DNA of 64,000 bases from Labrys monachus (lineage in GTDB: Bacteria; Pseudomonadota; Alphaproteobacteria; Rhizobiales; Labraceae). This document shows, in pieces, positions 14,827-30,411 of the stretch. How positions within the stretch are numbered: the stretch's first letter is position 1; every line of letters begins with the position of its first letter. Below the pieces are notes generated by a model. That model had not been told where the DNA came from, made no database searches, and was given only the letters and a program-made list of their open reading frames with translations. The stretch covers positions 5,959,001-6,023,000 of the forward strand of contig NZ_JAUSVK010000001.1 of assembly GCF_030814655.1 (NCBI RefSeq). The letters are read 5' to 3'. A program made the position numbers and the translations under genes.

Positions 14827-15873
14827 ATGAAGCTCGGAACCTTCGAACGGCAGGGGCATCGCTTCGTGGGCGTGGTGGCGCCCGGCGAGCGCCATGCCTT
14901 CGACGTGGCCGCCGCCCAGGCGGCGACCGGCTCCGCCCCCGACGCCGCCCTGCGCACCATGCTGGACCTGATCGACGCCGGCGAGGCCGGCCTCGACCGG
15001 GTGCGCCGCCTGGCGGAGCGCGAAGGCGCAGAGGCGGCCTTCCTGGTGCCGCTCGACGCGGTCGCCTTCCTGCCTCCCGTGCCGGAGCCGCGGCAACTGC
15101 GCGAAGCCGCCCTCTTCCCCGGCCATATCCGCCACGCGCCCATCGGCATGCGCCGGGTTGCCGCCTTCCTCGAAGGGCGTGCGCCGACGCCGGAGGAATT
15201 GCAGCCGCTGCCGGCCGTGCCGCCGGTGTTCGTCGACCGCCCGGTCTCCTATTTCCAGAACCGGCTGAACGTCGTCGGCCACCGGGCCGTGGTGCAATGG
15301 CCGCAGGCGAGCCGGGTGATGGATTTCGAGCTCGAATTCGGCCTCTTCCTCGGCCGGGGCGGGCGCAACATCCGCCCCGCCGAGGCGAGCCGCTGCATCT
15401 TCGGCTACACCCTCTACAACGACATGTCGGCGCGCGACTTCCAGCTCGTCGAGAGCCGATCCGGCTTCGGCCCCTCGAAATCCAAGAGCTTCGACGGCGC
15501 CAACGCCATGGGCCCGTGGATCGTCACCCCCGACGAGATCCCCGATCCCTACGCCCTCGCCCTGGAAGCCCGCGTCAATGGCGAGCTCTGGGCCAGCGGC
15601 ACCTCCGCCGGCATGCTGCACAGCTTCGAGGACCTCATCGTCCACTTCTCCAGGGACGAGACGCTCCAGCCCGGCGAGTTCCTCGCCTCCGGCACCGCCG
15701 CCGGCGGCACGGGGCTGGAGATCGGCCGCTTCCCGCAGGACGGCGACATGGTCGAGCTCGTCGCCGACTCGATCGGCACCCTCGCCAACCGGCTCGTCCG
15801 CATCCGCGGCGCGGACGCCGCCGAAATTTCCGCTTGCGCGGAAACCCCAATCACGCTCTCATCAGACGTCTGA
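14827..15873 (+). CDS. Fumarylacetoacetate hydrolase (FAH) family protein
   Basis: Metal-dependent hydrolase or decarboxylase of 348 residues. The C-terminal two thirds hold the FAH fold: FQNRLNVVGH, the acidic metal ligands in MDFELEFGLFLG, YNDMSARDFQ and MGPWIVTPDEI. An N-terminal domain of about 100 residues, typical of the longer family members, precedes it. FAH proteins cleave C-C bonds in acylpyruvates or decarboxylate oxo-acids at the end of ring degradation pathways. It follows the ECF importer by 30 nt. The operator at 15861 overlaps its last codons, so the next gene likely starts a new transcription unit. Confidence 0.82.
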   Translation: MKLGTFERQGHRFVGVVAPGERHAFDVAAAQAATGSAPDAALRTMLDLIDAGEAGLDRVRRLAEREGAEAAFLVPLDAVAFLPPVPEPRQLREAALFPGHIRHAPIGMRRVAAFLEGRAPTPEELQPLPAVPPVFVDRPVSYFQNRLNVVGHRAVVQWPQASRVMDFELEFGLFLGRGGRNIRPAEASRCIFGYTLYNDMSARDFQLVESRSGFGPSKSKSFDGANAMGPWIVTPDEIPDPYALALEARVNGELWASGTSAGMLHSFEDLIVHFSRDETLQPGEFLASGTAAGGTGLEIGRFPQDGDMVELVADSIGTLANRLVRIRGADAAEISACAETPITLSSDV

Positions 15874-15881
15874 CGTCTGAT
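15861..15881. promoter_or_regulatory. Operator before ring-opening amidohydrolase
   Basis: Perfect inverted repeat ATCAGACG-N5-CGTCTGAT. The inner core GACGTCTGACGTCTGAT (15865-15881) recurs at 21588-21604, before the UTRA regulator, with one mismatch. A TTGACT -35-like hexamer (15882-15887) follows immediately in both places. The arrangement predicts repression by the regulator at 21652. Confidence 0.7.
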
Positions 15882-15919
15882 TTGACTCGCCCTCGTCCAG
15901 TCATCTCCGGAGTTCGCCC

Positions 15920-17011
15920 GTGCGCGCCGATGTCCACCGCTTCAGTATTGCCGATCCCAGCGACGTCTCAGGCCTCAAGGCCGCCATCGACAGCGGCGCG
16001 ATCGATGCCTCGCAGATCGTCGCGGTCATCGGCAAGACGCACGGCAACGGCCTCGTCAATGATTACACCCGCGGCTATCTCACCCTCTGCCTCTCGATCC
16101 TGATCGGCGAGCGCACCGGCCGTTCGCCGGAAGCCGTGCGCGAGAAGATCCCGTTCGTGTTCTCGGGCGGCGTCGAGGGCGTGCTGTCGCCGCATTACAC
16201 CGTCTTCACCGTCGCGCCGGACGGTGCGGCCGCCGGCGGCGAGCCGGCGCTCGCGATCGGCGTCGCCTTCACCGCGCCGATGCGCCCGTCCGACATCGGC
16301 CGGCAGGCCCAGATCGACGCCATCGCCGCCTCGGTCACCGCGGCCATCGCCGAGGCCGCCATCGAGGAGGTGCATTTCGTGCAGGTCAAGGGCCCGGCCT
16401 TCACGCTCGCCGACATTCTCGAAGACCAGCGCTCCGGCCGTCCGCCCGCCACCGACAATCCCGGCAAGCTGATGAGCTTCGGCCGCGCGGCCTGCGCGCT
16501 CGGCGTCGCCAAGGCGCTCGGCGAGGTGCCGGCCGACAAGGCGGTCGAGGCCGCCGTGCTCAAGGATTTCTCGCTCTATTCGTCGGTGGCGTCGATGTCG
16601 GCGGGCGTCGAGGTCGACTGCAACGAGGTGATCGTCGTCGGCATGAGCCGGGCCTGGTCCGGCCCGCTCGCCATCGAGCACACCACCATGACGGACGCGC
16701 TCGACGTCGCCAGCATCCACGCCATGGTGCAGCGCCTCGGCTTTTCGCCTGCCCCGCAGATGGAGGCGGGCCGCGTGCGCGCCGCCTTCATCAAATGCGA
16801 GGCGCAGCGCGACGGCCTCATCCGCGGGCGTCCGCACACCATGCTCAACGACGGCGACATCAACGAGCAGCGCCACATCCGCGGGGCGGTCGGCGCCATC
16901 GCGGCGAGCATCCTCAACGATACCGGCCTGTTCGTGTCCGGCGGCGCCGAGCATCAGGGCCCCGATGGCGGCGGCATGATCGCGGTCATCGCCGACCGGC
17001 CGGACGCCTGA
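15920..17011 (+). CDS. Ring-opening amidohydrolase, cyanuric acid hydrolase/barbiturase family
   Basis: Hydrolase of 363 residues that opens a cyclic imide ring; known members act on cyanuric acid (AtzD/TrzD) or barbituric acid. The protein is made of three similar repeats, each giving a Ser-Lys pair. I place lysines at 39 (IGKTHGNG), 157 (QVKGPAF) and 292 (FIKCEAQ), and serines at 82 (FSGGVEG), about 227 (ASMSAGVE) and 340 (VSGGAEHQGPDGGG). All are preserved, so the enzyme should be active. The GTG at 15920 is used; no better start is nearby. It leads an operon with a flavin monooxygenase and an amidase, which suggests that an oxidised pyrimidine-like ring is made, opened here and then deamidated. 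Confidence 0.9.
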   Translation: MRADVHRFSIADPSDVSGLKAAIDSGAIDASQIVAVIGKTHGNGLVNDYTRGYLTLCLSILIGERTGRSPEAVREKIPFVFSGGVEGVLSPHYTVFTVAPDGAAAGGEPALAIGVAFTAPMRPSDIGRQAQIDAIAASVTAAIAEAAIEEVHFVQVKGPAFTLADILEDQRSGRPPATDNPGKLMSFGRAACALGVAKALGEVPADKAVEAAVLKDFSLYSSVASMSAGVEVDCNEVIVVGMSRAWSGPLAIEHTTMTDALDVASIHAMVQRLGFSPAPQMEAGRVRAAFIKCEAQRDGLIRGRPHTMLNDGDINEQRHIRGAVGAIAASILNDTGLFVSGGAEHQGPDGGGMIAVIADRPDA

Positions 17012-17012
17012 G

Positions 17013-18242
17013 ATGAACGCGGCGAAGAAGCAGCGCATCGTGGTCGTCGGCGCCGGCATCGCCGGCAGCCTGATCACGGCGGGCCTGGCCGGGCGCGACG
17101 ACATCGAACTCACCTGCCTGGAGCGGGTCAGCCCCCTCGATCATGCCGAAGCCGGCACCGGCCTCAATATCGGCCCGAACGCGATGAAATGCCTGAAGCT
17201 GCACCTGCCCGCCAGCGCCGAGGCCATCATCGCCAACAGCCTGCCCTGGCAGAGCTGGCAGGTCTCGCTCACCGACGGCCGGGTGCTGATGGACCTCGAC
17301 CTCGCCACCGTCGCCGACAATGCCGGCATCCGCATCCGCTGGGCCGAGCTCTACGCGCTGCTGCGCGAGCCGATCCGCGAGCATGTGCGCTTCTCCGCCG
17401 AGCTGACGCAATGCGGACGGGCGGACGGCAGCCCCTTCGTCGTCTGGCGGGACCGCGCTTCGGGCACCGAGAGCCGCATCGAGGACATCGATCTGCTGAT
17501 CGCCGGCGACGGACGCTATTCGCAGATCCGGGAGTTCGTCCTCGGCGGGCCGGAGACGCCCCATTTTCTCGGCGTCTGCCTCTACCGCGTGCTGTTCCCG
17601 GCCGGGCCCGATTGTCCGATTGACGACTACGCCCAGTGGTTCAACGGATCCAACCGGCTGCTCGCCTTCCGCGTGCCCGGCGATTTCATCTATTGCGCCG
17701 GCTCGTTCCCGATCCCCCCGGGCAGCGGCATCGCCGAGGACATGAAGCAGCCGGCCTTCCTCGGCGAACTCTACCGGCCCGCCTCCGGGACGCCCTCCCC
17801 GCAGGCCGGCTACCTGATCGAGGCGGTGCAGCGCCATGCCGAGCGCATCCATTGGGCGCGGCTGCAGGAAGGCAGCGTCGCCTATGGGCGCGAGCCCGGC
17901 ATCCTGCTCGTCGGCGACAGCGCCCATCCGATGGTGCCGACGCTCGGCCAGGGCGCGACCCAGGCCTGCGAGGACGCCTGCGTCGTCGTCGACGAGATCC
18001 GGGCGGCCCTCGCCGAGGGACGTCCGGTGGCGACGGTTTCCGAGCGCGTCGAAGCGCGGCGCGCCGATCGGGTGCGCTTCGTCGTCGACTTCTCGCGCGA
18101 GGCCACCGACACCATGCTGGCGGGCGCCGATCCGGTCGCCGGCACAATCCGCAAGACCGAGCCCGCCTTCCGGCAGAAGCTGGCCCAGCTCTATCGCGAC
18201 ATACCGCTGCCGGCATCATCACGGGTGGGAGAACCGGCGTGA
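17013..18242 (+). CDS. FAD-dependent monooxygenase (group A aromatic hydroxylase fold)
   Basis: Flavoprotein of 409 residues that should use NAD(P)H and oxygen to hydroxylate a ring. The dinucleotide-binding motif VVVGAGIAGS is at residues 10-19, and the second FAD motif is LLVGDSAHPMVPTLGQG followed by ATQACEDA, as in urate hydroxylase (HpxO) and p-hydroxybenzoate hydroxylase relatives. There is no signal peptide, so it is cytoplasmic. It starts one base after the hydrolase stop. By position it is the likely step that prepares the heterocycle for opening; barbiturate-like products would fit. The substrate is inferred from context only. Confidence 0.82.
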   Translation: MNAAKKQRIVVVGAGIAGSLITAGLAGRDDIELTCLERVSPLDHAEAGTGLNIGPNAMKCLKLHLPASAEAIIANSLPWQSWQVSLTDGRVLMDLDLATVADNAGIRIRWAELYALLREPIREHVRFSAELTQCGRADGSPFVVWRDRASGTESRIEDIDLLIAGDGRYSQIREFVLGGPETPHFLGVCLYRVLFPAGPDCPIDDYAQWFNGSNRLLAFRVPGDFIYCAGSFPIPPGSGIAEDMKQPAFLGELYRPASGTPSPQAGYLIEAVQRHAERIHWARLQEGSVAYGREPGILLVGDSAHPMVPTLGQGATQACEDACVVVDEIRAALAEGRPVATVSERVEARRADRVRFVVDFSREATDTMLAGADPVAGTIRKTEPAFRQKLAQLYRDIPLPASSRVGEPA

Positions 18243-19654
18243 GCACCTCGGACACCGCCCCCCTCTGGTCCCTGACGGCCGCCGAGCTCGTCGCCGGCTA
18301 TCGCACCGGCGCGTTCTCGCCGACGGCGGTGATGGACGCCGTCTTCGACCGCCTCGACGCGGTCAATCCCGGCCTCAATGCGGTGATCGCCGTCGACCGC
18401 GAAGGCGCCACGCTGGCCGCGCTCGATTCGACGCTGCGCTGGGAGAACGGCGCCCCGCTCTCGGTGCTCGACGGCGTGCCGATCAGCATCAAGGACAATC
18501 TCTACCTCGCGGGCCTGCCGGCCACCTGGGGCAGCCGGCTGCACCGCGACTTCGTGCCCGATCACGACGAGCCGGCGGTCGCCCGCCTCCGGGCGGCCGG
18601 CGCCCTCCTGTTCGGCAAGACCAACGTGCCGGAATTCACGGTGCAGGGCTATACCGGCAACCTCGTCTTCGGCACGACGTTCAACCCGCATGCGCGCGGC
18701 ATGACGCCGGGCGGCTCGACCGGCGGCGGCGCGGCGGCGGTCGCGGCCGGCATCGGGCCGCTCGCCATCGGCACCGACGCCGGCGGCTCCATCCGCCGCC
18801 CGGCCGCCCATTGCGGGCTGTTCGCCCTCAAGCCGTCGATCGGCCATGTGACGCGCTATGACGGCTTTCCGCAGCTCCTGGCCGATTTCGAAGTCGTCGG
18901 CGCGATCGGCCGGTCCGCCGCCGATCTCGACAGCGTGCGCGAGGTGCTGGAGACCTTCGATCCCGCCGATCCGCGCACGCTGGCGACCGCCGCCCCGGCG
19001 CGGCCCTTCCCCGCCGAGCCGCGCATCGCCTTCATGCCGGCGATCGGCGCCAATCCCGTCGACCCGCGCATCGCGGCGGCGAGCCGCCGCATCGCCGCGG
19101 CGCTCGCGGAAACCGGCGCCCGGGTCGAGACGATCGAGGCGCCCTTCGACGCCGACCGCGTCACCGCCGCCTGGACCGCGATCATGCAGGCGGGCCTCGC
19201 CTGGCACCTGTCGAAATTCGAGGGCTGGCAGGCGCTCGTCAATCCCAGCGCCAGGGCGCTGGCCGAACAGGGCGCCGCCCGCACGGCGGGCGAGCTGCTC
19301 GACGCCCTCGCCGCCGCCGCCGAGGTGCGCAGCGCCGCCGGCCTGTTCTTCCGCGACTACGATCTGCTGCTCTGCCCCGCCACCGCGGCCCTCGCCTGGC
19401 CGGCCGACACCATCTTCCCGCCCGAGATCGACGGCCGCGAGGTCGGCCCGCGCGGCCACGCCGTGTTCACCGGCTGGATGAACGTCACCGGCCTGCCGGC
19501 GGTGACGGTGCCCGTCGCGATGACCGACGCGCAAGGCGGCATCGGGCTGCAGCTCGTGGCCGGCCATGGCCGCGACCGCGACCTCCTCGACTTCCTCGCC
19601 ACTTCGCCCGCCCTGCGGCCGTTCGCGCCCGCATCCCTCGCCAATCCGGATTGA
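18239..19654 (+). CDS. Amidase signature family hydrolase
   Basis: Enzyme of 471 residues with the complete amidase-signature catalytic triad: Lys85 in ISIKDN, cis-Ser160 in GGSTGGG and nucleophile Ser184 in DAGGSIRRPA; the Ser160-Ser184 spacing of 24 is canonical. The GTG start at 18239 overlaps the monooxygenase stop. AtzE-type amidases of this family act directly after AtzD in cyanuric acid breakdown, and an analogous role on the linear product of the ring-opening enzyme (for example a ureido- or malonamide-type compound) is the simplest reading. Lack of a signal peptide indicates a cytoplasmic enzyme. Confidence 0.85.
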   Translation: MSTSDTAPLWSLTAAELVAGYRTGAFSPTAVMDAVFDRLDAVNPGLNAVIAVDREGATLAALDSTLRWENGAPLSVLDGVPISIKDNLYLAGLPATWGSRLHRDFVPDHDEPAVARLRAAGALLFGKTNVPEFTVQGYTGNLVFGTTFNPHARGMTPGGSTGGGAAAVAAGIGPLAIGTDAGGSIRRPAAHCGLFALKPSIGHVTRYDGFPQLLADFEVVGAIGRSAADLDSVREVLETFDPADPRTLATAAPARPFPAEPRIAFMPAIGANPVDPRIAAASRRIAAALAETGARVETIEAPFDADRVTAAWTAIMQAGLAWHLSKFEGWQALVNPSARALAEQGAARTAGELLDALAAAAEVRSAAGLFFRDYDLLLCPATAALAWPADTIFPPEIDGREVGPRGHAVFTGWMNVTGLPAVTVPVAMTDAQGGIGLQLVAGHGRDRDLLDFLATSPALRPFAPASLANPD

Positions 19655-19658
19655 AGCC

Positions 19659-20414
19659 ATGCCCTCTCCCTCGCCGCAATTCGACGGCAAGATCGCCATC
19701 GTCACCGGGGCCGGCAGTGGCATCGGCCGCGCCGCCGCCGAGGGCTTCGCCACCGGCGGCGCCACGGTGATCTGCGTCGACTGGAAGGAGGCGGACGAAG
19801 CCGCCGCCGCGATCCGGGCGACCGGCGGACGGGCGGAAGCCGCGAGCCTCGACGTGCGCGACGCCGAAGGCTGGACGGAGCTGGTGCAGGACGTGCTCGG
19901 CCGCCACGGCCGCATCGACATCCTCGTCAACAATGCCGGCATCGCCGTGGCCGGCGACACCGCGATCGACGTGTCCGAGGCGGTGTGGGACCGCATCCTC
20001 GATATCAACGCCAAGGGCGTCTGGCTCGGCATGCGCGCCGTGCTGCCGGGGATGGTGGCGCGCCGGAGCGGCAAGATCTGCAACGTCGCCTCGACGGCGG
20101 CCCATATCGGCCTGCGCGACGCCGCCGCCTACTGCGCCTCCAAGGGGGCCGTCCTCGCCTTGACGCGGCAGGCCGGAGTGCAATACGCGCCCCACAACGT
20201 CCAGATCAATTCGGTGTCGCCGGGCACGACGATGACCGGCATCCAGCGCGACGTCACCGACGCCCAGCGCGCCGCCTTCCTGCCGCTGACGCCGATCGGC
20301 CGCTTCGCCGAATCGCCGGAGGTCGCCGCCGTCATCCTGTTCCTCTGCTCGGACGGCTCCTCCTTCGTGACGGGATCCGACGTGAGCGTCGACGGCGGCA
20401 TGGTCGCCCTGTAG
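19659..20414 (+). CDS. SDR family NAD(P)-dependent oxidoreductase
   Basis: Classical short-chain dehydrogenase of 251 residues. The cofactor motif TGAGSGIG is at residues 16-23; NNAGIA, the catalytic serine in VASTAA and the YCASK Tyr-Lys pair follow in order. The C-terminus SVDGGMVAL is typical. The ATG at 19659, four bases after the amidase stop codon, is favoured over an earlier in-frame ATG inside the amidase gene. It probably oxidises a hydroxyl on the sugar or side chain of the operon's substrate. Confidence 0.85.
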   Translation: MPSPSPQFDGKIAIVTGAGSGIGRAAAEGFATGGATVICVDWKEADEAAAAIRATGGRAEAASLDVRDAEGWTELVQDVLGRHGRIDILVNNAGIAVAGDTAIDVSEAVWDRILDINAKGVWLGMRAVLPGMVARRSGKICNVASTAAHIGLRDAAAYCASKGAVLALTRQAGVQYAPHNVQINSVSPGTTMTGIQRDVTDAQRAAFLPLTPIGRFAESPEVAAVILFLCSDGSSFVTGSDVSVDGGMVAL

Positions 20415-20444
20415 GCCGGCCCGAACGCAAGAGAAGGAGCCCGC

Positions 20445-21356
20445 ATGAACGTTCTGTTGACCGGCGCCGCCGGTTTGATCGGCATGGCCCTGAGGCCGAT
20501 GCTCGCCGCGCGCGGGCACAAGGTCGTCCCGATCGACATCACCGGCTTCGGCCGCGACGATCCCGCGCTGAGGCTGGTCGGGCTCGACGAGCGCGGTCCG
20601 CTCGAAGCGCTCATCCGCGAGGAGGCGATCGACGCCGTCCTGCATTGCGGCGCCATTTCCGGCCCGATGATGGCGCAGGGCGAGCCGCTCAAGCTCGTCT
20701 CGGCCAATATCGACGCGACCGCCCTGCTGCTCGACCTCGCCCGCGTCCACGCCATGCGGCGCTTCGTGTTCTGCTCCTCGATCAGCGTCTATGGCGATGT
20801 CGGCGCGGCGGCCATCACCGAGGCGACACCGCTGCGGCCGACCTCCGTCTACGGCGCCACCAAGGTCGCCTGCGAGCAGCTGATCCAGGGCTTCGCGGTG
20901 GAATACGGCCTCGCCGGCGTCAGTCTGCGCATCGGCCGGGTCTACGGCCCCTACCGCCGCGCCAATTGCCATCTCAACGCGCTGATCCGCAACGCCGAGA
21001 GGGGCGTGGAGACGGAGATCCCCTGCGACCCCGGTTTCGTCTACCACTACGTCTATGCCGACGACGTCGCCGAAGCGATGATCGCCGCGCTCGAGGCCAG
21101 GGACCTGCCGCACCGCGAATACAATGTCGGCTCCGGCGAGGCGCTGACCATGCCGGCCATCGTCGAGAAGGCAGCCGCCGCCCATCCGGACATGCGCCCG
21201 CGCCTCGTTCCCGGCGCCGACGACGTGCCGGACGTGCAGACGCGCTTCGACGTCGCGCTGATCGCCGCCGATCTCGGCTGGAAGCCGCGCTTCCCCATCG
21301 CCGAGGGCCTCGCCGCCTATCGCGACGCCATCCGCGCCGGCAAGGCGGCGGCGTGA
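20445..21356 (+). CDS. NAD-dependent epimerase/dehydratase family protein (extended SDR)
   Basis: Extended short-chain dehydrogenase of 303 residues. TGAAGLIG at the N-terminus binds NAD, CSSISVYG supplies the catalytic serine and YGATK the Tyr-Lys pair. RIGRVYGPYRR and the late YADDVAEAM segment match the sugar-nucleotide epimerase fold, though in catabolic operons such proteins often oxidise free sugars, lactols or sugar acids. It is the last gene before a 295-nt gap that holds the second copy of the operator. Confidence 0.82.
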   Translation: MNVLLTGAAGLIGMALRPMLAARGHKVVPIDITGFGRDDPALRLVGLDERGPLEALIREEAIDAVLHCGAISGPMMAQGEPLKLVSANIDATALLLDLARVHAMRRFVFCSSISVYGDVGAAAITEATPLRPTSVYGATKVACEQLIQGFAVEYGLAGVSLRIGRVYGPYRRANCHLNALIRNAERGVETEIPCDPGFVYHYVYADDVAEAMIAALEARDLPHREYNVGSGEALTMPAIVEKAAAAHPDMRPRLVPGADDVPDVQTRFDVALIAADLGWKPRFPIAEGLAAYRDAIRAGKAAA

Positions 21357-21587
21357 ACACGCATCCCATCCGGGGCACGAGATGACCCGATCTCCTGCGC
21401 GCGCTCAGGCCGGCGTCGGCGCAGATTTTCGGGGAGCGGAGACGTCTCGCCCGCCCCTGTTTTCCCGGCGGCGTGAAAACCGGCCCGGACAGGCCGCGAG
21501 AAGCCCGGGTACCGGCCTTCAGCACGCTCCGGCCTAGATGTCCGGTCGAAACGGGCGAGAGGTATTTTGCCGTCGGTAAAGAAACAA

Positions 21588-21604
21588 GACGTCTGACCTC
21601 TGAT
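21588..21604. promoter_or_regulatory. Operator copy before UTRA-type regulator
   Basis: GACGTCTGACCTCTGAT, matching the core at 15865-15881 at 16 of 17 positions. A TTGACT hexamer follows (21610-21615), so the box-then-TTGACT layout at 15882 is repeated. The site lies 48 nt before the regulator start and suggests autoregulation. A GAGACGTCTC palindrome at 21439-21448 in the same gap shares the GACGTCT core and could be a weak third site. Nothing else gene-like was seen in 21357-21651. Confidence 0.65.
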
Positions 21605-21651
21605 GTCAGTTGACTTCGCCGCCGTCCTTCCGCATTCTCCGCCTGCCGAGC

Positions 21652-22449
21652 ATGGAGGCCGACGTGGACGACCTGCAGATCACCCATCTTTCCGGACGCA
21701 TCTGGCAGGGCGGCGTGCCGCGGGAAGACCTCGTGGGGCGCGTCTCGAACGCTCTTCGCGAGCAGATCCAGTCGGGCGCGCTGCCGCATGGCACGCGGCT
21801 GCGGGGCGAGGCGGAACTGGCGCGCCAGCTCAACATCAGCCGGCCGACCCTGCGGGAGGCGACGCGGATCCTGGCGCGCGACGGCCTGCTCGACATCCGC
21901 CACGGCGTCGGCACCTTCGTCACCGACCCGTCCCGGCATGTCAGCAGCGCCCTCGACACCATGCGCTCGATGAGCGCCCTGATCCGCTCCTTCGGCGGCG
22001 AACCTCGCGTGCGCGACATGACGTTCCGGATGGTCCCGGCGGAGGGCGGCGTCGCCGAGGCGCTGGGTGTCGCCAAGGATACCCCGGTCGCCCAGATCTG
22101 CCGCGTGCGCCTGATGGACGAGCGGCCGCTCGCCGTCGCCTATGAATATATCCGCCTCGTCGATCCCGCGCGGGAGTTCGCCTTGGTGCGGCGCTTCGAC
22201 GGCAGCTCGATCTACCGTTTCATGTCCGAGCAATTGGCGCGGCCGCTGGCGCGCAGCGAGATGTCGGTGACCGCGGTCTCCGCCGGCAAGACCTTCGCCG
22301 CCTTGCTGGACCTCAAGCCGCGCTCGCCGCTCCTCCTGATGCGCGAGGCGCATTTCGACATCGAGGGCCGGCGCTCGCTCTATTCGGTCAACTACCACAA
22401 TTCCGACGTCATCGACTTCACCCTGGTCCGCGCCGGGATGAAGTCATGA
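21652..22449 (+). CDS. GntR family transcriptional regulator with UTRA domain (HutC subfamily)
   Basis: Regulator of 265 residues. The N-terminal winged helix includes GEAELARQLNISRPTLRE and a DIRHGVGTFV wing; the C-terminal UTRA ligand-binding domain covers about residues 95-260, with the typical ICRVRLMDERPLAVAYEYI strand pair and a final FTLVRAG. The ATG at 21652 leaves the operator in the leader; an upstream in-frame ATG at 21610 would overlap the -35-like hexamer and is less likely. It overlaps the PfkB gene (ATGA), placing it as first gene of the kinase operon. UTRA proteins commonly sense sugar phosphates or small nitrogenous metabolites. Confidence 0.87.
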   Translation: MEADVDDLQITHLSGRIWQGGVPREDLVGRVSNALREQIQSGALPHGTRLRGEAELARQLNISRPTLREATRILARDGLLDIRHGVGTFVTDPSRHVSSALDTMRSMSALIRSFGGEPRVRDMTFRMVPAEGGVAEALGVAKDTPVAQICRVRLMDERPLAVAYEYIRLVDPAREFALVRRFDGSSIYRFMSEQLARPLARSEMSVTAVSAGKTFAALLDLKPRSPLLLMREAHFDIEGRRSLYSVNYHNSDVIDFTLVRAGMKS

Positions 22450-23357: not shown

Positions 23358-23396
23358 ACGAAGGCCGGGCCGCGAGGCCGGGCCGCACCAAAGCAA

Positions 23397-24569
23397 ATGA
23401 AGGGAATTGCCGTGCAGAACGAAAAGACCGTCATGCTGCAAGAGATTGCCATGCAACCCGGTTTCGTGCGTGACAATGTCGACGCCATGCTCGACTTCAT
23501 GCGCGGCGTCGTCGCCCCGCGCGAACCGGGAACGCTGCGCCACGGCTTCATGATCGGCTGCGGTGACAGCTATTGCGCCGCCCTCGCCGCGCGGCAGCAC
23601 ATGTCGCTGGCCACCGGCCGCTTCATCGAGCCGGTCGAAGCCCTGGAATTCTCGCGCTACCTGGTGGGCCACCTGCCCGAGGACAGCTTCGTGTTCGGCA
23701 TCTCCAATTCCGGAACGGTATCGCGCACCATCGAGGGCGTGCGCCTCGCCCGCGAGCGCGGCGCCTGGACCTTCGGCGTCACCGTCAGCGCCGACAACCG
23801 GCTGGCGAGGACAGCGGAGACGCTGATCAAGGTCAATGCCACCCCGAACATCAAGGAGCAGCCGGACGGGACGCGCGTCGTCACCCCCGGCACCATCACC
23901 TACACCGCCAGCATGCTCGGCCTCGTCATCGCCGGCATCGCCCTCGGCGAGCGCATCGGCAATCTCGACGCCGCCGAGGTCGCGGCGCTGGTGGCCGACC
24001 TGCACGCCCTGCCCGACGCGATGGCGAAGGCCGATGCCGTTTCCGGCACGCTCGCCGAGGCGATCGCCGCCAGCTTCACGAAAGATCGCAAGACGGTGAT
24101 CCTCGGCGGCGGCCCGAACTATGCCACCGCCTATTTCGGCATGGCCAAATGGTTCGAGGGCCTGACGCGCCCCTGCCACCTCTCCGAGCTCGAGGAGTGG
24201 GCGCACGAACATTACTTCATCACCGACGAGATGACCGACACCATCATCATCCTGCCCCCGGGCGCCGGGCACGACCGCGGCCTCGAACAGGCCCAGGCCG
24301 CGCGGGAGATGGGCTCGCGCATCATCATCATCGGCGAGGAGGGCGACGAAGAGGCCAAGGCGGCCTGCGATATCTTCTTCGCCATGCCGCCGGTGCCCGA
24401 AACGCTGTCGCCCTTCGTCTACAAGGCGCCGTTCGAATATCTGTCCTGCCACATCTCCGACAAGCAGGGCATCGCCTTCCTCGGCTTCGACAACCGCAAG
24501 CGCCAGGAAGTCAATTTCCGCCAGATCTTCAATTCGGCGCAGAAGGCCGAAAGCGGAGCGGCGGCCTGA
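23397..24569 (+). CDS. SIS-domain sugar isomerase-like protein
   Basis: Protein of 390 residues with two sugar-isomerase (SIS) domains. The first holds GFMIGCGDSYCAALA and FGISNSGTVSRT, the phosphosugar-binding Ser/Thr loop; the second begins about residue 230 with KTVILGGGPNYATAYFG and includes ELEEWAHEHYF, recalling the isomerase half of GlmS and AgaS. There is no glutaminase domain. An ATG at 23397 is used; a GTG at 23412 is a possible alternative. It overlaps the BtpA gene by one base (TGATG). It should isomerise or deaminate a sugar phosphate produced by the kinase operon. Confidence 0.82.
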   Translation: MKGIAVQNEKTVMLQEIAMQPGFVRDNVDAMLDFMRGVVAPREPGTLRHGFMIGCGDSYCAALAARQHMSLATGRFIEPVEALEFSRYLVGHLPEDSFVFGISNSGTVSRTIEGVRLARERGAWTFGVTVSADNRLARTAETLIKVNATPNIKEQPDGTRVVTPGTITYTASMLGLVIAGIALGERIGNLDAAEVAALVADLHALPDAMAKADAVSGTLAEAIAASFTKDRKTVILGGGPNYATAYFGMAKWFEGLTRPCHLSELEEWAHEHYFITDEMTDTIIILPPGAGHDRGLEQAQAAREMGSRIIIIGEEGDEEAKAACDIFFAMPPVPETLSPFVYKAPFEYLSCHISDKQGIAFLGFDNRKRQEVNFRQIFNSAQKAESGAAA

Positions 24570-25375
24570 TGAGCGAACTTCTGTCCCTCATCCGCGCCGG
24601 CAGGAAGCCGGTCATCGGCATGGTGCAGCTCGGCGCCCTGCCGGGCAGCAGCCGCTACCGGGGCGCCGGCATCGACGACATCCTCGTCCCGGCCCTCGCG
24701 GAGGCGCAGATCCTGGCCGAGAACGGCGTCGACGTGCTGATGGTGCAGAATCTCGGCGACGTCCCGACCGACCTGCACGCCACCAAGGCGCAGGTCGCCT
24801 GGATGACGCGGGTGTCGAGCGAGGTCCGGCAAGCCTTCGGCAAGCCCGTCGGGCTCAACCTCCTGGAGAACGACGCGGAGGCGATGTTCGCCGTCGCGTC
24901 CGCCGCGGGGGCCGATTTCGTGCGCATCAAGATCTTCGTCGGGGCGATGCTGACGCCGTTCGGTGTCGAATCGGCGCAGGCCTTCGCGGCGATCCGCGCG
25001 CGGACGAGCTGGAACGCCGACCATGTCGCCATCTTCGCCGACGTCCACGACCGCACCGGCATGTCGCTGGTGCCCGGCACCTTCGAGGACGACCTCGACT
25101 ATGCCGTGCGCCTCGGCACCGCCGACGGACTCGTCCTCACCGGCAAGACCTACGCTCAGACGCACGACTATATCGCCATCGCCCGGCGCAGGGTCGGCCA
25201 GGTGCCGATCCTGGTCGGCGGCAGCGTCACCGCAGAGAATGTGGCGGAAGTGAACGCCGTCGCCGACGGCACGATCGTCTCCTCCTCCCTCAAGGGCACC
25301 GGGACGGCCTTCGGCAGCTTCGATCCCGCCAAGGTCCGATCCTTCATGGCCGCCGCACAGGAGGCGAAAGCGTAG
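24569..25375 (+). CDS. BtpA/SgcQ family TIM-barrel protein
   Basis: Protein of 268 residues belonging to the BtpA family, named from a cyanobacterial photosystem I biogenesis factor but widely found in sugar and nucleoside operons of other bacteria. GMVQLGALPGSSRY at the start, NGVDVLMVQNLGD, VGLNLLENDAEA, FVRIKIFVGAMLTPFG and GGSVTAENVAE are the recognisable barrel strands; SLKGTGTAFG near the end looks like a phosphate-binding loop. The photosystem role cannot apply here because no photosynthesis genes are in sight. By fold and neighbours it should act on a phosphorylated sugar or nucleoside, possibly cleaving the glycosidic bond. Confidence 0.8.
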   Translation: MSELLSLIRAGRKPVIGMVQLGALPGSSRYRGAGIDDILVPALAEAQILAENGVDVLMVQNLGDVPTDLHATKAQVAWMTRVSSEVRQAFGKPVGLNLLENDAEAMFAVASAAGADFVRIKIFVGAMLTPFGVESAQAFAAIRARTSWNADHVAIFADVHDRTGMSLVPGTFEDDLDYAVRLGTADGLVLTGKTYAQTHDYIAIARRRVGQVPILVGGSVTAENVAEVNAVADGTIVSSSLKGTGTAFGSFDPAKVRSFMAAAQEAKA

Positions 25376-25416
25376 AACGAGCACAAAGGGGCAAGGCCTG
25401 GGCAAGCGCCACGTTC

Positions 25417-25569
25417 CACCCTCCCCTCGAGGGGGAGGGGCGACGCGAAGCGTCGGAGTGGGGTGACTTCTTCGCAAGAATTCATTGTTTCTTGCCTGTG
25501 TCATGCCGGGTCGCGCCATCACCCTACCCCGGCCTTGCAGGCTGACCCTCCCCCTCCAGGGGAGGGTGT
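25417..25569. repeat. Mosaic palindromic element upstream of BMP gene
   Basis: The 275-nt gap 25376-25650 is largely taken up by an interspersed element. Left part: CACCCTCCCCTCGAGGGGGAGGGG, then the perfect hairpin CGACGC-GAA-GCGTCG (25441-25455). Right part, around 25520-25569: CACCCTACCCC and the matching CCCTCCCCCTCCAGGGGAGGGTG. The outer ends are mutually inverted. It differs in sequence from the elements at 1112 and 8890. It may partly separate the kinase operon from the importer operon. Confidence 0.6.
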
Positions 25570-25650
25570 CGCACCGGACCTGAACCACCCGGCGAAGAGA
25601 GCGAAGCTCCGCGCCGACTGTCGTCCACTCCAGATCCAAAGGGAACACAG

Positions 25651-26709
25651 ATGAGAAGAGTTCTTGCAGCACTCGGCATCCTGGCGATGCTGGCCGGCAG
25701 TCTGCTCTTGGCCGGCGCCGCCGAAGCGAAACTGCGCGTGGCGATGGTCACGTCGGAATCCGGCCTCGGCGACCGCTCCTTCAACGACATGATGAACCAG
25801 GGGATGAAGAAGGCGGCGGCCGAGTTCGGCATCGATTATGTCGTCATCCAGCCGCGCTCGATCTCGGAATTCCAGTCGACCCTCGCCCGCGCGGCGGGCC
25901 AGGGCTTCGACTTCATCGTCGGCTCGTCCTTCGACATGATCAAGCCGATGCAGACGGTGGCCGCCGCCTTCCCCAACCAGAAGTTCGGCCTCGTCGATGT
26001 CGGCCCCGACCCGATCGCCCCCAATGTGGTGAGCAGCGTGACCAAGGACTGGGAAGGCTCCTTCCTCGTCGGCATGATCGCGGCCAAGACCACCAAGACG
26101 GGCACGATCGGCTTCGTCGGCGGCAAGGACATCCCGATCATCCACCGCTTCTTCATCGGCTATTATTACGGGGCGAAGATGGCCAATCCCCAGGTCAACG
26201 TCCTTGAGACCTATGCCGGCACCTTCACCGACCCGGCGGCCGGCAAGGAATACACGCTCTCGCTCGTCAACCAGAAATCCGACATCAACTTCGCCGTCGC
26301 CGGCGCCACCAGCGCGGGTGTGATCGACGCGGCCAAGAGCACCAAGACGCTCGCCATCGGCGTCGATTCGAACCAGAACTACCTCGCTCCCGGCTTCGTG
26401 CTCACCTCGATGGTGAAGCGGGTCGACACCCAGGCCTACGACATGATCAAGTCGGTGGTGGACGGCACGTTCAAGGGCGGTACCGTGCTCTATTACGGCC
26501 TGAAGGAAGGCGGCGTCGACGCGGCGATGGACCAGTACAACAAGGGCCTCATCGCCGACGACGTCCTCAAGCAGGTCGATGTGCTGCGCCAGAAGGTGAT
26601 TTCCGGCGAGATCGTGGTGCCGAACTATTTCGACCTGAAGCCCGGCCAGAAGGAGATGGGCACGCCGCCGATGGCGACGCCGCCCTCGATCGCCGGCAAG
26701 AGCAACTGA
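25651..26709 (+). CDS. BMP family (PnrA-like) nucleoside-binding periplasmic protein
   Basis: Solute-binding protein of 352 residues for an ABC importer. A Sec signal peptide (residues about 1-26, ending AGAAEA) has no lipobox cysteine, so the mature protein is free in the periplasm. SGLGDRSFNDM at the mature N-terminus and the TKDWEGSFLVG segment are BMP-family hallmarks; in PnrA such regions hold the ribose and stack the base. Known ligands are purine and pyrimidine nucleosides. It is the first gene of a four-gene importer. Confidence 0.87.
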   Translation: MRRVLAALGILAMLAGSLLLAGAAEAKLRVAMVTSESGLGDRSFNDMMNQGMKKAAAEFGIDYVVIQPRSISEFQSTLARAAGQGFDFIVGSSFDMIKPMQTVAAAFPNQKFGLVDVGPDPIAPNVVSSVTKDWEGSFLVGMIAAKTTKTGTIGFVGGKDIPIIHRFFIGYYYGAKMANPQVNVLETYAGTFTDPAAGKEYTLSLVNQKSDINFAVAGATSAGVIDAAKSTKTLAIGVDSNQNYLAPGFVLTSMVKRVDTQAYDMIKSVVDGTFKGGTVLYYGLKEGGVDAAMDQYNKGLIADDVLKQVDVLRQKVISGEIVVPNYFDLKPGQKEMGTPPMATPPSIAGKSN

Positions 26710-26779
26710 GCGGATACGGAACGACGGCGCGGCGAACCCTTGCCGCACCTCTCCCTCCTCCAGCGATCCGGGTGATGCC

Positions 26780-28339
26780 ATGCACGGCAGCGACCTCGTC
26801 ACGATGCGCAATATCGCCAAGCGGTTCGGGGACCTCATGGCGATCCACGATGCCTCGATCGAGATCCGGCCCGGCGAGATCCACGCCCTCGTCGGCGAGA
26901 ACGGCGCCGGCAAGTCGACGCTGATGAACATCCTCTACGGCCTCGTGCCGCGCACGGGCGGTGAAATCCTGCTGCGCGGCGCACCGGTGTCGTTCGACGG
27001 TCCCGCCGAGGCGATCAAGGCCGGCATCGGCATGGTGCACCAGCATTTCAAGCTGGCGCCGTCCTTCACCGTCGCCGAGAACATCATCATCGGCGCCGAG
27101 CCGGTGCGCTCCTTTTCCCGGCTCGACCGCCGGCGCGCCGAGGAGCAGACCGCCGAGCTCAGCCGCCGCTTCGGCCTCGACCTCGATCCCAAGGCCGTGG
27201 TCGGCACGCTGCCGGTCGGCCTGCGCCAGCGGGTCGAGATCCTCAAGGCGCTCTACCGCAATGCCGAGACGCTCATCCTCGACGAACCCACGGCCGTGCT
27301 GACGCCGCAGGAGACGCATGAGCTGTTCGCCACCATGCAGGCCCTGGCCGAGAGCGGGCGCTCGGTGATCTTCATCACCCACAAGCTGCGCGAGGTGCTG
27401 GCGGCGGCGGACCGCATCTCGGTGATGCGGCACGGGCGCATCGTCACCACGCGCGACAATGACGGCATCACCGCCGACGAGATCGCCAGCCTGATGGTCG
27501 GCCGCAGCGTGCTGCTGCGGGTGAGCAAGGCCGCCTCCCGCCCCGCGCCGGCCTGCACGCTCGAGATCCGCAACCTGACGGTGCGCAGCGAGCGCGGCGC
27601 CGTCGCGGTGGAGGACCTGTCGCTCGACATCCATCCCGGCGAGATCGTCGGCCTCGCCGGCGTGCAGGGCAACGGCCAGGACGAGCTGGTCGAGAGCATC
27701 GCCGGGCTGCGGCGGCCGGTCGCCGGCCGCATCTCGATCTGCGGCACGTCGCCCGCCGCCTCCAGCCCCCGTGCCGCGCGCAAGGCCGGCCTCGCCTATA
27801 TCCCGGCGGACCGCGGCCAGGTCGGGCTCTCGCTGCAGAGCTCGATCTGGGAGAACCTGACGCTCGGCCACCAGGCCGAGTTCAGCCATGGCCCGCTGCT
27901 CTCGGCCGGGGCGGCACGGCGCCGGACGCGCGAACTCATCCGCAGGTTCGACATCCGCGGCGCCGGCGAGGACACCCCGGCCGGCGCGCTCTCGGGCGGC
28001 AACCAGCAGAAGGTGCAGCTCGCCCGCGAACTGACGCGCGCGGTCTCGCTGATCATCGCCGAGCAGCCCTCGCAGGGCGTCGACATCGGTGCGATCGAAT
28101 CGATCCACCGCATGCTCGTCAAGATGCGGGACGAAGGCTGCGCCGTCTTCGTCGTTTCGGCGGATCTCGACGAGATCTTCTCGCTCTGCGACCGCATCCT
28201 GGTGATCTATCGCGGCCGCATCGTCGGCGATTTCGCCAGCGCCGATGCGACGGTCGAGGGCGTCGGCCGGCTGATGGGCGGCCTGGAGGCGGAGGCCCCC
28301 CGCGCCGACGACCCGGTTCCGGCCGAGACAGGGACATGA
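26780..28339 (+). CDS. Nucleoside/sugar ABC transporter tandem ATPase (YufO/NupO-like)
   Basis: ATPase of 519 residues with two ABC domains. Domain 1: Walker A GENGAGKST, Walker B TLILDEPTAVL, H-loop ITHKL; its signature is replaced by LPVGLRQR, as usual in this subgroup. Domain 2: a degenerate phosphate loop GVQGNGQDE, signature LSGGNQQK, Walker B LIIAEQPSQGVD. This asymmetric arrangement is normal for the MglA/RbsA/YufO group. It lies 70 nt after the binding protein and overlaps the next permease (ATGA). Confidence 0.88.
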   Translation: MHGSDLVTMRNIAKRFGDLMAIHDASIEIRPGEIHALVGENGAGKSTLMNILYGLVPRTGGEILLRGAPVSFDGPAEAIKAGIGMVHQHFKLAPSFTVAENIIIGAEPVRSFSRLDRRRAEEQTAELSRRFGLDLDPKAVVGTLPVGLRQRVEILKALYRNAETLILDEPTAVLTPQETHELFATMQALAESGRSVIFITHKLREVLAAADRISVMRHGRIVTTRDNDGITADEIASLMVGRSVLLRVSKAASRPAPACTLEIRNLTVRSERGAVAVEDLSLDIHPGEIVGLAGVQGNGQDELVESIAGLRRPVAGRISICGTSPAASSPRAARKAGLAYIPADRGQVGLSLQSSIWENLTLGHQAEFSHGPLLSAGAARRRTRELIRRFDIRGAGEDTPAGALSGGNQQKVQLARELTRAVSLIIAEQPSQGVDIGAIESIHRMLVKMRDEGCAVFVVSADLDEIFSLCDRILVIYRGRIVGDFASADATVEGVGRLMGGLEAEAPRADDPVPAETGT

Positions 28340-29472
28340 GCGTGAGCGAGAGCGAGACGAGCCTGCCCAAGCAGGCGGGCCTTCCGGGGATGCGCATCCT
28401 GAAGCCGCTGGCCGGCCCGGTGCTGGCGGTCGTCATCTCCTTCGTCATCGGCGGGCTGCTGGTCGCCGCCCTCGGCCAGGACCCGGTCGCGGTCTATCGC
28501 CTGCTCATCGAAGGCAGCCTCGTCGGCTGGGCCAACCTGTCGGTGACGCTGCAGATGACGACGCCGCTGATCTTCACCGGCCTCGCCGTCGCGCTCTCGT
28601 TCCGCTCCGGCATCTGGAACATCGGCGTCGAGGGCCAGATGCTGATGGGCGCCCTCGCCGCCGGCATCGTCGGCTACGCCGCCGACCTGCCGCCGCTCCT
28701 CCACGCGCCGGCCTGCATCCTCGCCGCGGCGCTGGGCGGGGCGCTGTGGGCCGCCATTCCAGCCCTGTTGCGGGTCTATCTCAACGTCAATGAGCTCGTC
28801 ATCTGCCTGATGCTCAATCCGACGGCGCTGCTCGTCACCGGCTATATCTCCACCCGCGTGCTGAAGGCGCCGGGGCCGACCAACAAGCTGCCGGACATCG
28901 CCGACGCCGCGAGGCTGACCAATTATTCGATCTTCTCGCAGCTCAATACCGGCATCTTCATCGCCATCGCCTGCTGCGTCGCGATCGCGGTGTTCAACCG
29001 CGTGACGGTGCGCGGCTATGAATGGAAGCTGATCGGCCTCAATTCGCGCTTCGCCCATTACGGCGGCGTCAATGTGCGCCGCAACGTCATCGGCGTCATG
29101 CTGGTCAGCGGCGCCATCGGCGGCCTCGCCGGCGCGGAGCAGGTGCTCGGCGTCTACGGCGCCTTCTACGACAATTTCTCGCCCGGCTACGGCTTCGACG
29201 GCATCGCCGTGGCCATGCTGGCCCATTCCCATCCCATCGGTGTGATGCTGGCGGCCTTCCTGTTCGGCGCGCTCGACAGCGGCAGCTCGGTGCTGCAGAT
29301 GCAGATGGGCATCAGCAAATATCTGGTGCAGGTGCTGCAGTTCATCGTGGTGCTGATCCTGGCGGCCCAGTTCTCCTTCGGCTGGCTGGACCGGCACCGC
29401 AAGAGGCAGGCGGCCGGCGCCCCCGCCGCCGCGCCGGGCGAGCAACCCGGCCCGACCCCCGCCGACCGCTGA
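28336..29472 (+). CDS. Nucleoside ABC transporter permease (YufP-like)
   Basis: Inner-membrane permease of 378 residues with about nine hydrophobic helices. Recognisable segments are FRSGIWNIGVEGQMLMGA, LNVNELVICLMLNP and GYGFDGIAVAMLAHSHPIG, all typical of the BMP-type nucleoside transporter family. The last 30 residues are charged and proline-rich. It pairs with the smaller permease 22 nt downstream. Confidence 0.87.
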   Translation: MSVSESETSLPKQAGLPGMRILKPLAGPVLAVVISFVIGGLLVAALGQDPVAVYRLLIEGSLVGWANLSVTLQMTTPLIFTGLAVALSFRSGIWNIGVEGQMLMGALAAGIVGYAADLPPLLHAPACILAAALGGALWAAIPALLRVYLNVNELVICLMLNPTALLVTGYISTRVLKAPGPTNKLPDIADAARLTNYSIFSQLNTGIFIAIACCVAIAVFNRVTVRGYEWKLIGLNSRFAHYGGVNVRRNVIGVMLVSGAIGGLAGAEQVLGVYGAFYDNFSPGYGFDGIAVAMLAHSHPIGVMLAAFLFGALDSGSSVLQMQMGISKYLVQVLQFIVVLILAAQFSFGWLDRHRKRQAAGAPAAAPGEQPGPTPADR

Positions 29473-29493
29473 CATTCCGCAGGAGCGAGCGCC

Positions 29494-30411
29494 ATGATTT
29501 CCGACATCGCCTTCTCCGCCATCCGCATCTCCACGCCGCTGATCTTCGCGGCGCTGGGCGGCCTCTTCACCTTCCAGGCGGGCATGCTGAACATCGCGCT
29601 GGATGGCTTCATGATCGTCGCCGCCTTCGCCGCCATCGCCGCCGCCTATATCTCGGGCAGCCTCGCCGTCGGCGTGCTGGCCGGCATCCTCGCGGGCATG
29701 CTGATGGCGGCGCTGATGGCGCTGTTCAACCTGCGCTTCCGCGCCCATATCTTCATCGTCGGCATCGCCGTCACCTTCCTCGCCTATGGCCTCACCGCCC
29801 TGCTCCTCAAGAGCCTGCTCGGCCAGGACGGCGTGTTCGCCTCCGACGCCATCCCCACCTTCCCGGCCATCGACATCCCCTTCGTCGCCGACATACCGGT
29901 GGTCGGGCCGCTGGCCAGCGGCCATACCCTCCTCGTCTACGTCGCCTATCTCGCCATACCCGTGGTGCATTGGTGGCTCTACCGCACGCGCTGGGGCCTC
30001 CGGGTGCGGGTGGTCGGCGAGGCCGAGGACGCCGCGCGCGCCGCCGGCATCCCCGTCGAGCGGGTGAAATTCCAGACCATGCTGCTCAGCGGCCTGTTCT
30101 GCGGCCTCGCCGGCGCCTATCTGTCGCTCGGCTATGTCTCGCTGTTCGCCAAGCAGATGAACAATGATCGCGGCCTGATCGCCCTGGCGGCGATCTTCTT
30201 CGCCAAGGGGCGGCCGGTACGCACCGCGGCCGTCGCCGTGCTGTTCGGCCTGGCGACGGCGCTCTCGGTGCGACTGCCGCAGGTCACCGGCGCGGCGCCG
30301 CAGCTGCTCGAGCTGATCCCCTATCTCGTGACCATCCTCGCCATGGTGATCGTCGGCATCCGCACGACGCGCGACAATGCGCTGAACGGAAGCTGGCGCT
30401 TCGATCAGTAG
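29494..30411 (+). CDS. Nucleoside ABC transporter permease (YufQ-like)
   Basis: Second permease, 305 residues, with about eight to nine hydrophobic segments. FQAGMLNIALDGFMIV is the counterpart of the NIGVEGQM motif of its partner, and MNNDRGLIALAAIFFAKGRP is the cytoplasmic coupling loop. It completes a binding protein, ATPase and two-permease importer and ends the cluster; an AT-rich intergenic region follows. Confidence 0.87.
   Translation: MISDIAFSAIRISTPLIFAALGGLFTFQAGMLNIALDGFMIVAAFAAIAAAYISGSLAVGVLAGILAGMLMAALMALFNLRFRAHIFIVGIAVTFLAYGLTALLLKSLLGQDGVFASDAIPTFPAIDIPFVADIPVVGPLASGHTLLVYVAYLAIPVVHWWLYRTRWGLRVRVVGEAEDAARAAGIPVERVKFQTMLLSGLFCGLAGAYLSLGYVSLFAKQMNNDRGLIALAAIFFAKGRPVRTAAVAVLFGLATALSVRLPQVTGAAPQLLELIPYLVTILAMVIVGIRTTRDNALNGSWRFDQ

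Follow-up and report, generated by a model that had tools for sequence, protein, structure and literature searches.

A candidate regulon for the breakdown of a nucleoside, built around a cyanuric acid hydrolase-like enzyme in Labrys monachus

The window considered here is a 64,000-nucleotide stretch of the Labrys monachus genome (G000:C1:5959001-6023000; 6.92 Mb, one contig). It holds a run of genes in which a ring-opening amidohydrolase of the AtzD/TrzD family is followed by oxidoreductases, an amidase-signature enzyme, a GntR/UTRA regulator, a PfkB-family kinase, a SIS protein, a BtpA-family protein and an ABC importer with a BMP-type binding protein. From atzD through the second permease (15.9-30.4 kb), Pfam matches recovered every family that the initial annotation had named in its 14.5-kb block, and all of these genes are co-oriented. 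The block therefore stands, but the extent given for the system, 15861-30411, was too narrow in content and length, as it included neither the GntR/UTRA regulator nor an upstream part reaching to ~9.0 kb. That extension (9.0-15.9 kb) carries a divergent FCD-type GntR gene, a class-V aminotransferase, a YkoE-type energy-coupling factor (ECF) importer and a fumarylacetoacetate-hydrolase (FAH) family protein. Start codons in the window were chosen by us, and gene calls outside annotated records come from our own composition script rather than a gene finder. The features of the locus are as follows.

9002-9805, minus strand: FCD-type GntR regulator (PF07729 and PF00392), divergent from the aminotransferase-ECF operon
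9902-11131, plus strand: class-V aminotransferase, glyoxylate aminotransferase-like (PF00266)
11382-12074, plus strand: YkoE-like ECF S component (PF09819)
12074-13987, plus strand: double ABC ATPase of the ECF importer, YkoD-like (two PF00005 stretches)
13984-14796, plus strand: CbiQ-like ECF transmembrane component, YkoC-like (PF02361)
14827-15873, plus strand: FAH family protein (PF01557)
15864-15878, no strand assigned: operator-like palindrome AGACGTCTGACGTCT before atzD, overlapping the end of the FAH gene
15920-17011, plus strand: AtzD/TrzD-family ring-opening amidohydrolase, clade X (PF09663, 419.7 bits)
17013-18242, plus strand: FAD monooxygenase, distant relative of the HpxO and NicC types (PF01494, 36.3 bits)
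18239-19654, plus strand: amidase-signature enzyme (PF01425, 268 bits)
19656-20414, plus strand: SDR oxidoreductase (PF13561)
20445-21356, plus strand: NAD epimerase/dehydratase-family oxidoreductase (PF01370)
21587-21601, no strand assigned: second operator-like palindrome AGACGTCTGACCTCT before gntR
21643-22449, plus strand: GntR/UTRA regulator, proposed repressor of the regulon (PF07702 and PF00392; a TTG start at 21610 is an alternative)
22446-23357, plus strand: PfkB-family kinase, proposed nucleoside or sugar kinase (PF00294)
23397-24569, plus strand: SIS protein of the GlmS-isomerase/deglycase type (PF01380)
24569-25375, plus strand: BtpA/SgcQ-family protein, a TIM barrel by family (PF03437, 191 bits)
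25651-26709, plus strand: BMP-type binding protein with nucleoside-receptor residues F44, D116, F192, D239 and K256
26780-28339, plus strand: ABC ATPase of the putative nucleoside importer (PF00005)
28336-29472, plus strand: ABC permease (PF02653, BPD_transp_2)
29494-30411, plus strand: ABC permease (PF02653, BPD_transp_2)

The distribution of these genes was followed in a sample of 397 genomes of the order, with AtzD sought at E<=1e-30. AtzD-family matches occur in 65 of the genomes; six of them reach at least 63% identity, and the one that follows stands at 53%. The SIS protein matches in seven (six at 73% or more, the seventh at 29%) and BtpA in 90 (six at 59% or more, the others below 40%). 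The close copies of all three proteins fall in an identical set of six genomes, whose loci we call class X: the window's own (G000) and five relatives from the Hyphomicrobiales, namely Mesorhizobium sp. BR1-1-16 (G277), Prosthecomicrobium pneumaticum (G333), a Bauldia metagenome-assembled genome (MAG; G306), G290 and G309. Two such six-genome sets, if independent, would coincide with a chance of 1.9e-13, a figure that is descriptive only, since neither the genes, which share a locus, nor the genomes, which are relatives, are independent. The initial annotation had offered a neighbourhood survey as a check on its single system, with lack of co-occurrence counting against it, and the survey instead returned the same six genomes.

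Linkage is likewise retained. All six loci carry atzD, the monooxygenase, SDR and epimerase genes, gntR/UTRA, pfkB, SIS, btpA and four importer genes, although the G309 locus is split over contigs C24 and C36, with a partial epimerase on the second. The amidase is present in four of the six, the window included, and G277, G333 and G306 have an extra SIS/PfkB pair of another type. Gene order is colinear in G000, G277 and, as far as seen, G309; the importer half is inverted in G333 and G306, and the halves are opposed in G290. Of 398 genomes sampled across the phylum, the SIS protein was found in its own genome alone, and the system thus appears to be rare. Among 72,556 plasmid records, the SIS protein has two matches (Mesorhizobium huakuii, 61.5%; Streptosporangium, 30% and partial) and AtzD 132, all below 60%.

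The two halves also appear to share a regulatory site. The 15-base palindrome AGANGTCNGACNTCT has two exact matches in the 6.92-Mb genome, both at the locus, and the reversed pattern used as a control has none; this lack of further exact sites in the organism's own genome is, in our view, the stronger part of the operator evidence. Among the relatives, exact matches lie before atzD and once off-locus (C24) in G277, and before an FmdA-like gene in G333. The half-site TCTGACCTCT, with one mismatch allowed, gave 18 hits in ten loci (203 kb) against ~7 expected from shuffles, which we count as 13 sites because palindromes hit twice. All of the hits lie in promoters: those of gntR (seven of seven loci, comprising the window, the five class X relatives and M. 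huakuii), of atzD (five of six) or of fmdA. In G309, atzD closely follows cbiQ and has no operator-like site. Judged on co-occurrence, linkage and the shared operator-like site, the AtzD side and the sugar/importer side look like one unit, as the initial annotation had supposed. On separate induction of the halves, the other outcome that it had set against its reading, the shared sites give an indirect indication only.

The BMP protein bears on what is taken up. In BmpA, Phe27 and Phe176 sandwich the base, whereas Asp98, Asp225 and Lys242 point towards the ribose (PMC13325309, part of the text). The window protein has F44 and F192 at the sandwich and D116, D239 and K256 at the ribose contacts, the combination of aromatic sandwich and Asp/Asp/Lys that marks importers of the PnrA/BmpA type, and all five others of its type in the comparison have the same residues. 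Eight positions are identical in all six class X-type proteins (window, G277, G333, G306, G290 and M. huakuii), in a comparison that omits G309 and counts L006/L049 and L048/L108, which are the same genes, once each. By contrast, D98, F176, D225 and K242 are all replaced in the seven BMP proteins of other AtzD loci, although for some distant ones the first three of the compared positions lie outside the matched stretch. The structure of AtzT has Tyr and Trp at the sandwich (PMC6834077, part of the text), and in our alignment the control AtzT of pADP-1 placed both residues there, keeping D225 without D98 or K242. None of D98, F176, D225 and K242 is present in the BMP protein of the Rhizobium cyanuric acid hydrolase (CAH) operon. 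Because the receptor residues are of the nucleoside type, the compounds imported by class X are probably nucleosides and not bare bases, and the nucleoside importer named by the initial annotation is upheld at the level of its predicted pocket.

The company kept by AtzD elsewhere was surveyed in 58 stretches. Of 75 AtzD rows in total, 69 lie elsewhere, and the stretches take in 60 of these; the other nine were left out (G278, G245, one of two in G281, G261, one of three in G309, G114, G036, G210 and G357). Relatives of SIS, BtpA, PfkB and GntR/UTRA were found in none of the 58 stretches by tblastn at E<=1e-10 and at least 45% coverage, with flanks of up to ~9.5 kb, so that distant or far-off partners could escape. 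In class Z loci a base-type BMP importer and an amidase accompany AtzD, in several together with an aminotransferase; class W loci combine AtzD with BPD_transp_2 permeases, an amidase and an FCD regulator, and resemble the Rhizobium cyanuric acid locus; the remaining contexts were grouped as class V. Class Y, from two Ferrovibrio, a Skermanella and G068, is the sister group at 50-53% identity, and has AtzD with the same type of monooxygenase and an amidase, no sugar genes of the class X kind within 10 kb and, in three of four loci, a nearby ABC importer whose binding protein resembles the NMT1 type by our reading of the sequence. Class X forms one clade in the tree (100/100), as does class Y (100/99), and the two are joined at 96/80. 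The AtzD of pADP-1 and two Rhizobium sequences fall outside X+Y in a second, quick tree, which left out stretches L106 and L107 (three long-branched rows) and in which, of these three sequences, only the pADP-1 enzyme has itself been studied. In the stretches examined, the monooxygenase accompanies AtzD in classes X and Y only. We therefore read X+Y as a putative base module of AtzD plus monooxygenase, to which class X would have added the sugar module and the nucleoside importer.

Several side observations concern the wider family. G277, G333, G306 and G309 each have an additional AtzD gene outside clade X. At six loci (L074, L097, L101, L103, L105 and L048/L108) an AtzD of 41-44% identity accompanies a base-type BMP importer and an amidase, a further uncharacterised context for the enzyme, with a class-V aminotransferase (62-67%) in four. 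Two Verrucomicrobiota MAG contigs (L005 and L007) have a clade X AtzD beside a CoA transferase III gene, with an enoyl-CoA-hydratase-type (ECH) gene and an NMT1-type importer also in L007; the occurrence of clade X AtzD in this phylum suggests inter-phylum transfer or a binning error.

Within clade X, the three Ser-Lys dyads, three Arg and the Glu to which catalytic roles are assigned in the family (PMC4051656, part of the text) are retained in all eight aligned proteins. Barbiturases have Gln at the R188 position (same source, likewise in part). That position is Arg in 8/8 clade X proteins, on which ground barbiturase identity was rejected, and CAH chains outscore barbiturase against the window AtzD. 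The initial annotation had left the choice between barbiturase and cyanuric acid hydrolase open; its family assignment holds, and the protein is nearer the latter while belonging to a clade of its own. Next to the catalytic residues, the clade departs as a whole from most other sequences: KGPAF replaces KCPLL behind the catalytic Lys (its G alone is also found in six of seven class Z proteins), KC replaces KA and a G precedes the second Arg, and seven of the eight have SGGV instead of SGGT. The window protein passes the NCBIfam model for cyanuric acid amidohydrolase (432.7 bits, cut-off 360), which weighs against a substrate other than cyanuric acid; in the tree, clade X stands apart from the reference cyanuric acid hydrolases tested. 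We infer that the substrate is a ring with three oxo groups other than cyanuric acid itself.

The sugar module is harder to place by family. All NCBIfam matches of the PfkB kinase are below cut-off, and the SIS protein scores 54.6 bits against GlmS-type chains in the PDB and, weakly, 24.8 bits against a putative fructosamine-type deglycase. BtpA is named in the model library as photosystem I biogenesis protein or BtpA/SgcQ family only; it contains a VGGSVTAENV stretch that we read as phosphate-site-like, and has a weak match to phosphoribosylanthranilate isomerase (PRAI; E 0.011, 18.8 bits). PRAI makes an Amadori shift, and Frl operons work by a kinase and a deglycase; the weak PRAI match and these Frl systems are the source of the Amadori idea. 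Together, PfkB, BtpA and SIS suggest phosphorylation, isomerisation and deglycation of an N-riboside. The catalytic residues of FraB were sought in the text of PMC12051030 and not found.

As to the base, the relatives are informative. The pMHb locus of M. huakuii 7653R has a GntR/UTRA-PfkB-SIS (62%)-BtpA-importer set like that of the window; no AtzD or monooxygenase occurs in 41 kb of this locus, which instead has an annotated dihydropyrimidinase, an SDR, an epimerase, an allantoinase-like (PuuE-like) protein, a ureidoglycolate lyase and a nucleoside hydrolase. Allantoinase-like genes are also present in the G277, G333 and G306 loci, and a ureidoglycolate lyase in that of G277; the allantoinase-like proteins scanned in the loci score 401-404 bits against a PuuE cut-off of 424.6. 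Among 19 distant BtpA stretches, hand-picked rather than random, three (G025, itself chosen for adjacent SIS and BtpA matches, G070 and G159) combine BtpA, SIS and PfkB with a hydantoin-racemase-type gene and a deaminase-like amidohydrolase, whose nearest models (5'-deoxyadenosine, TRZ/ATZ and 8-oxoguanine deaminases) are all below cut-off, and two of these sets (G025 and G070) include allantoinase-like genes. This gene company suggests rings of the ureide kind, which may derive from oxidised purines.

These three sets (L111, L121/L131 and L128/L133), in which no AtzD was seen, form a second gene set that may serve a related nucleoside. The L. monachus genome itself has 11 PuuE-model matches (two are apparently parts of one gene), one of them over cut-off, and at 4.12 Mb (L134) a PuuE-like gene adjoins a ureidoglycolate-lyase-like gene.

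Upstream of atzD, PF09819, two PF00005 stretches and PF02361 follow one another as in importers of the YkoEDC type; YkoEDC carries thiamin pyrimidine. The S component is 93% identical in G277 and 85% in G309. In these two of the five relatives the aminotransferase-ECF operon also lies directly upstream of atzD, there without the FAH gene, and the position of the FCD-type regulator is retained; a FAH relative is present in the G333 and G306 loci. The aminotransferase has BhcA as its best NCBIfam model (440 bits, under the cut-off of 650) and 6pk1 as its best solved relative (317 bits). The monooxygenase reaches 90.2 bits with the HpxO model, whose cut-off is 500, and 72 and 55 bits with 3rp6 and 5eow.

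We propose, with somewhat more confidence than doubt, that the locus forms a single regulon through which a nucleoside is imported and fully degraded, its base either being a cyclic ureide at the outset or being turned into one. Support from sequence comes from the six-genome linkage of the two halves, the shared operator-like site and the nucleoside-type receptor residues; the reaction order and the substrate we infer. Uptake of the nucleoside would fall to the BMP/ABC importer and that of the free base to the YkoE-type importer. PfkB would phosphorylate the sugar, and BtpA, with its PRAI-like phosphate-binding motif, would act with SIS in freeing the base and converting the sugar phosphate to a common one; an Amadori-type shift and subsequent deglycation are a possible mechanism. 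Oxidation of the base by the FAD monooxygenase would come next, and AtzD would open the ring, after which the amidase and accessory enzymes of some relatives (allantoinase-like, ureidoglycolate lyase, formamidase-like, CoA transferase) would finish the ureide, and the aminotransferase would use a glyoxylate-like product. The SDR and epimerase may oxidise a sugar or an intermediate, and the GntR/UTRA protein would release its operators once an intermediate is present.

Several observations weigh against this proposal. The exact 15-base palindrome is absent from G306, G290 and G309, three of the five class X relatives; G277 has a match away from the locus, the reversed control matches once in G309, and the operator test is partly circular because the motif was derived from these same promoters. 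The ureide base is argued from gene company alone, and the PuuE-like, AllA, FmdA, CoA transferase and aminotransferase genes are each missing from some loci; the first four were not seen in the window locus, and the organism's own PuuE-like/AllA pair is 1.8 Mb distant. The nearby nucleoside hydrolase of M. huakuii could perform the role assigned to BtpA and SIS, and the AlphaFold model of BtpA, with a predicted local distance difference test (pLDDT) score of 46.6, is too poor for use. The two Verrucomicrobiota contigs carry a clade X AtzD without a sugar gene, and no monooxygenase was seen on them either, though both are short (7.7 and 11.9 kb). Finally, an allantoinase that exceeds the PuuE cut-off (508-553 bits) and a hydroxyisourate (HIU) hydrolase are encoded elsewhere in each of the six class X genomes; the locus is therefore not the ordinary urate route, and the ordinary urate/allantoin pathway was rejected as its explanation.

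Alternatively, the locus could encode an oxidative pyrimidine-nucleoside route, in which the monooxygenase converts a uracil-like base to a barbiturate, AtzD opens this to a ureidomalonate, the amidase releases malonate and urea, and a CoA transferase and an ECH-type enzyme use the malonate. We consider this unlikely, but it retains appreciable weight, since several loci have CoA transferase and ECH genes near AtzD (CoA transferase III and ECH in G290, G306 and L007; CoA transferase in L005). The oxidative pyrimidine route comprises uracil dehydrogenase, barbiturase and ureidomalonase, and has in common with the window an amidase and the ring-opening amidohydrolase family, to which barbiturase belongs. 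The window differs in its flavin monooxygenase and its added sugar module, and no molybdenum hydroxylase family was found among the genes scanned in the locus. The Arg in place of the barbiturase Gln throughout clade X and the higher scores of CAH chains also speak against this route, which would, moreover, need no PuuE-like or AllA genes.

A fructosamine-like (Frl/Fra) route for a glycated heterocyclic amine, with PfkB as kinase, SIS as deglycase and the freed heterocycle passing to AtzD, appears improbable. A PfkB kinase, a SIS protein and a GntR/UTRA regulator in one operon recall the frl operons, and the weak matches of SIS to the putative fructosamine-type deglycase and of PfkB to fructoselysine 6-kinase (33.4 bits) are in keeping with it. 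The kinase score is, however, far under the family cut-off of 247, and the receptor pocket is of the nucleoside type. BtpA has, to our knowledge, no role in Frl systems, and neither AtzD nor a nucleoside importer is known from Frl/Fra.

Slightly more doubtful still are two pathways side by side, a cyanuric-acid/triazine operon and a separate sugar/nucleoside operon co-transferred on an island. The passing score of AtzD with the cyanuric acid amidohydrolase model, the BMP importers of known CAH loci and the patchy distribution would all fit such an arrangement. The Rhizobium leguminosarum cyanuric acid locus (RCAM1365 p_3), characterised in strain 3841 (PMC5806882, part of the text), shares with the window an AtzD-family hydrolase, a BMP-family receptor, two permeases, an ATPase and a GntR regulator. 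Its receptor lacks the ribose-contact residues, cysteine hydrolases replace the FAD monooxygenase and amidase, its CAH is outside clades X and Y, and no PfkB, SIS or BtpA was found in the 13 kb seen. Similarly, atzDGEHF/atzRSTUVW of Pseudomonas ADP shares AtzD and a BMP-type importer, and differs in its LysR regulator, in AtzG/E/F downstream, in the lack of sugar genes in the 13 kb seen and in its base-type receptor; AtzT binds guanine (PMC6834077, part of the text). Against two independent operons stand the shared operator-like sites, linkage that survives rearrangement in 6/6 loci, a BMP pocket unlike that of CAH operons and the further AtzD genes outside clade X that G277, G333, G306 and G309 own. 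The window amidase, moreover, scores 191 bits with the AtzE model TIGR02715 (cut-off 425.75) and 124 with allophanate hydrolase (cut-off 511), and no AtzE, BiuH-type or allophanate hydrolase gene was found among those scanned at 9.0-30.4 kb.

An ordinary cyanuric acid operon was rejected on the amidase score below the AtzE cut-off, the changed neighbours of the catalytic residues, the separate clade and the receptor differences. A pseudouridine route (PsuK/PsuG) was dismissed, as no pseudouridine-5'-phosphate glycosidase family occurs among the Pfam matches of the genes scanned at 9.0-30.4 kb.

Other features of the window are listed for completeness. The gap between btpA and the BMP gene has a G+C-rich stretch at 25400-25570 that is inverted-repeat-like by eye, one 16-base part of which is unique in the genome. 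A sugar/polyol cluster at 14-6721 comprises an ABC ATPase, an FGGY kinase, a 2-hydroxyacid dehydrogenase, an FAD oxidoreductase and a class II aldolase; one open reading frame at 52542-54665 fuses a BPD_transp_2 permease with a strictosidine-synthase/SMP-30-like domain; and an autotransporter of 1704 aa with passenger repeats occupies 58781-63895.

The initial annotation had found the full combination unfamiliar. This does not extend to AtzD with a BMP importer, which is already known from the Rhizobium and pADP-1 cyanuric acid loci, but it remains apt for the rest: as judged from the genes, what sets the locus apart is its dedicated BtpA/SIS/PfkB module together with a nucleoside-type BMP protein. 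Among the matches listed from the open-access literature, no title or abstract combines these families. Relative to PnrA/BmpA-type importers, whose receptor residues and make-up it shares, the window's importer is tied to a putative catabolic regulon.

In summary, a clade of the cyanuric acid hydrolase family in a likely regulon with a nucleoside-type receptor may show what role the family plays in nature, and this can be tested. As the window protein scores above the threshold for cyanuric acid amidohydrolase, clade X is also a likely source of wrong database names. BtpA, for its part, is placed in a defined gene company, which in separate lineages consists of a kinase, a SIS protein and ureide enzymes. 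A more far-reaching version of the proposal, which we put forward as speculative and rather unlikely, is that phosphorylated nucleosides of oxidised purines or other ureides (for example, from 8-oxoguanine damage) are opened by PRAI-like isomerisation through BtpA and by SIS deglycation rather than by a phosphorylase or nucleosidase. If true, BtpA would gain a clear enzymatic role in nucleoside breakdown of an undescribed kind, and in clade X the cyanuric acid hydrolase fold would serve a natural purpose unconnected with xenobiotics.

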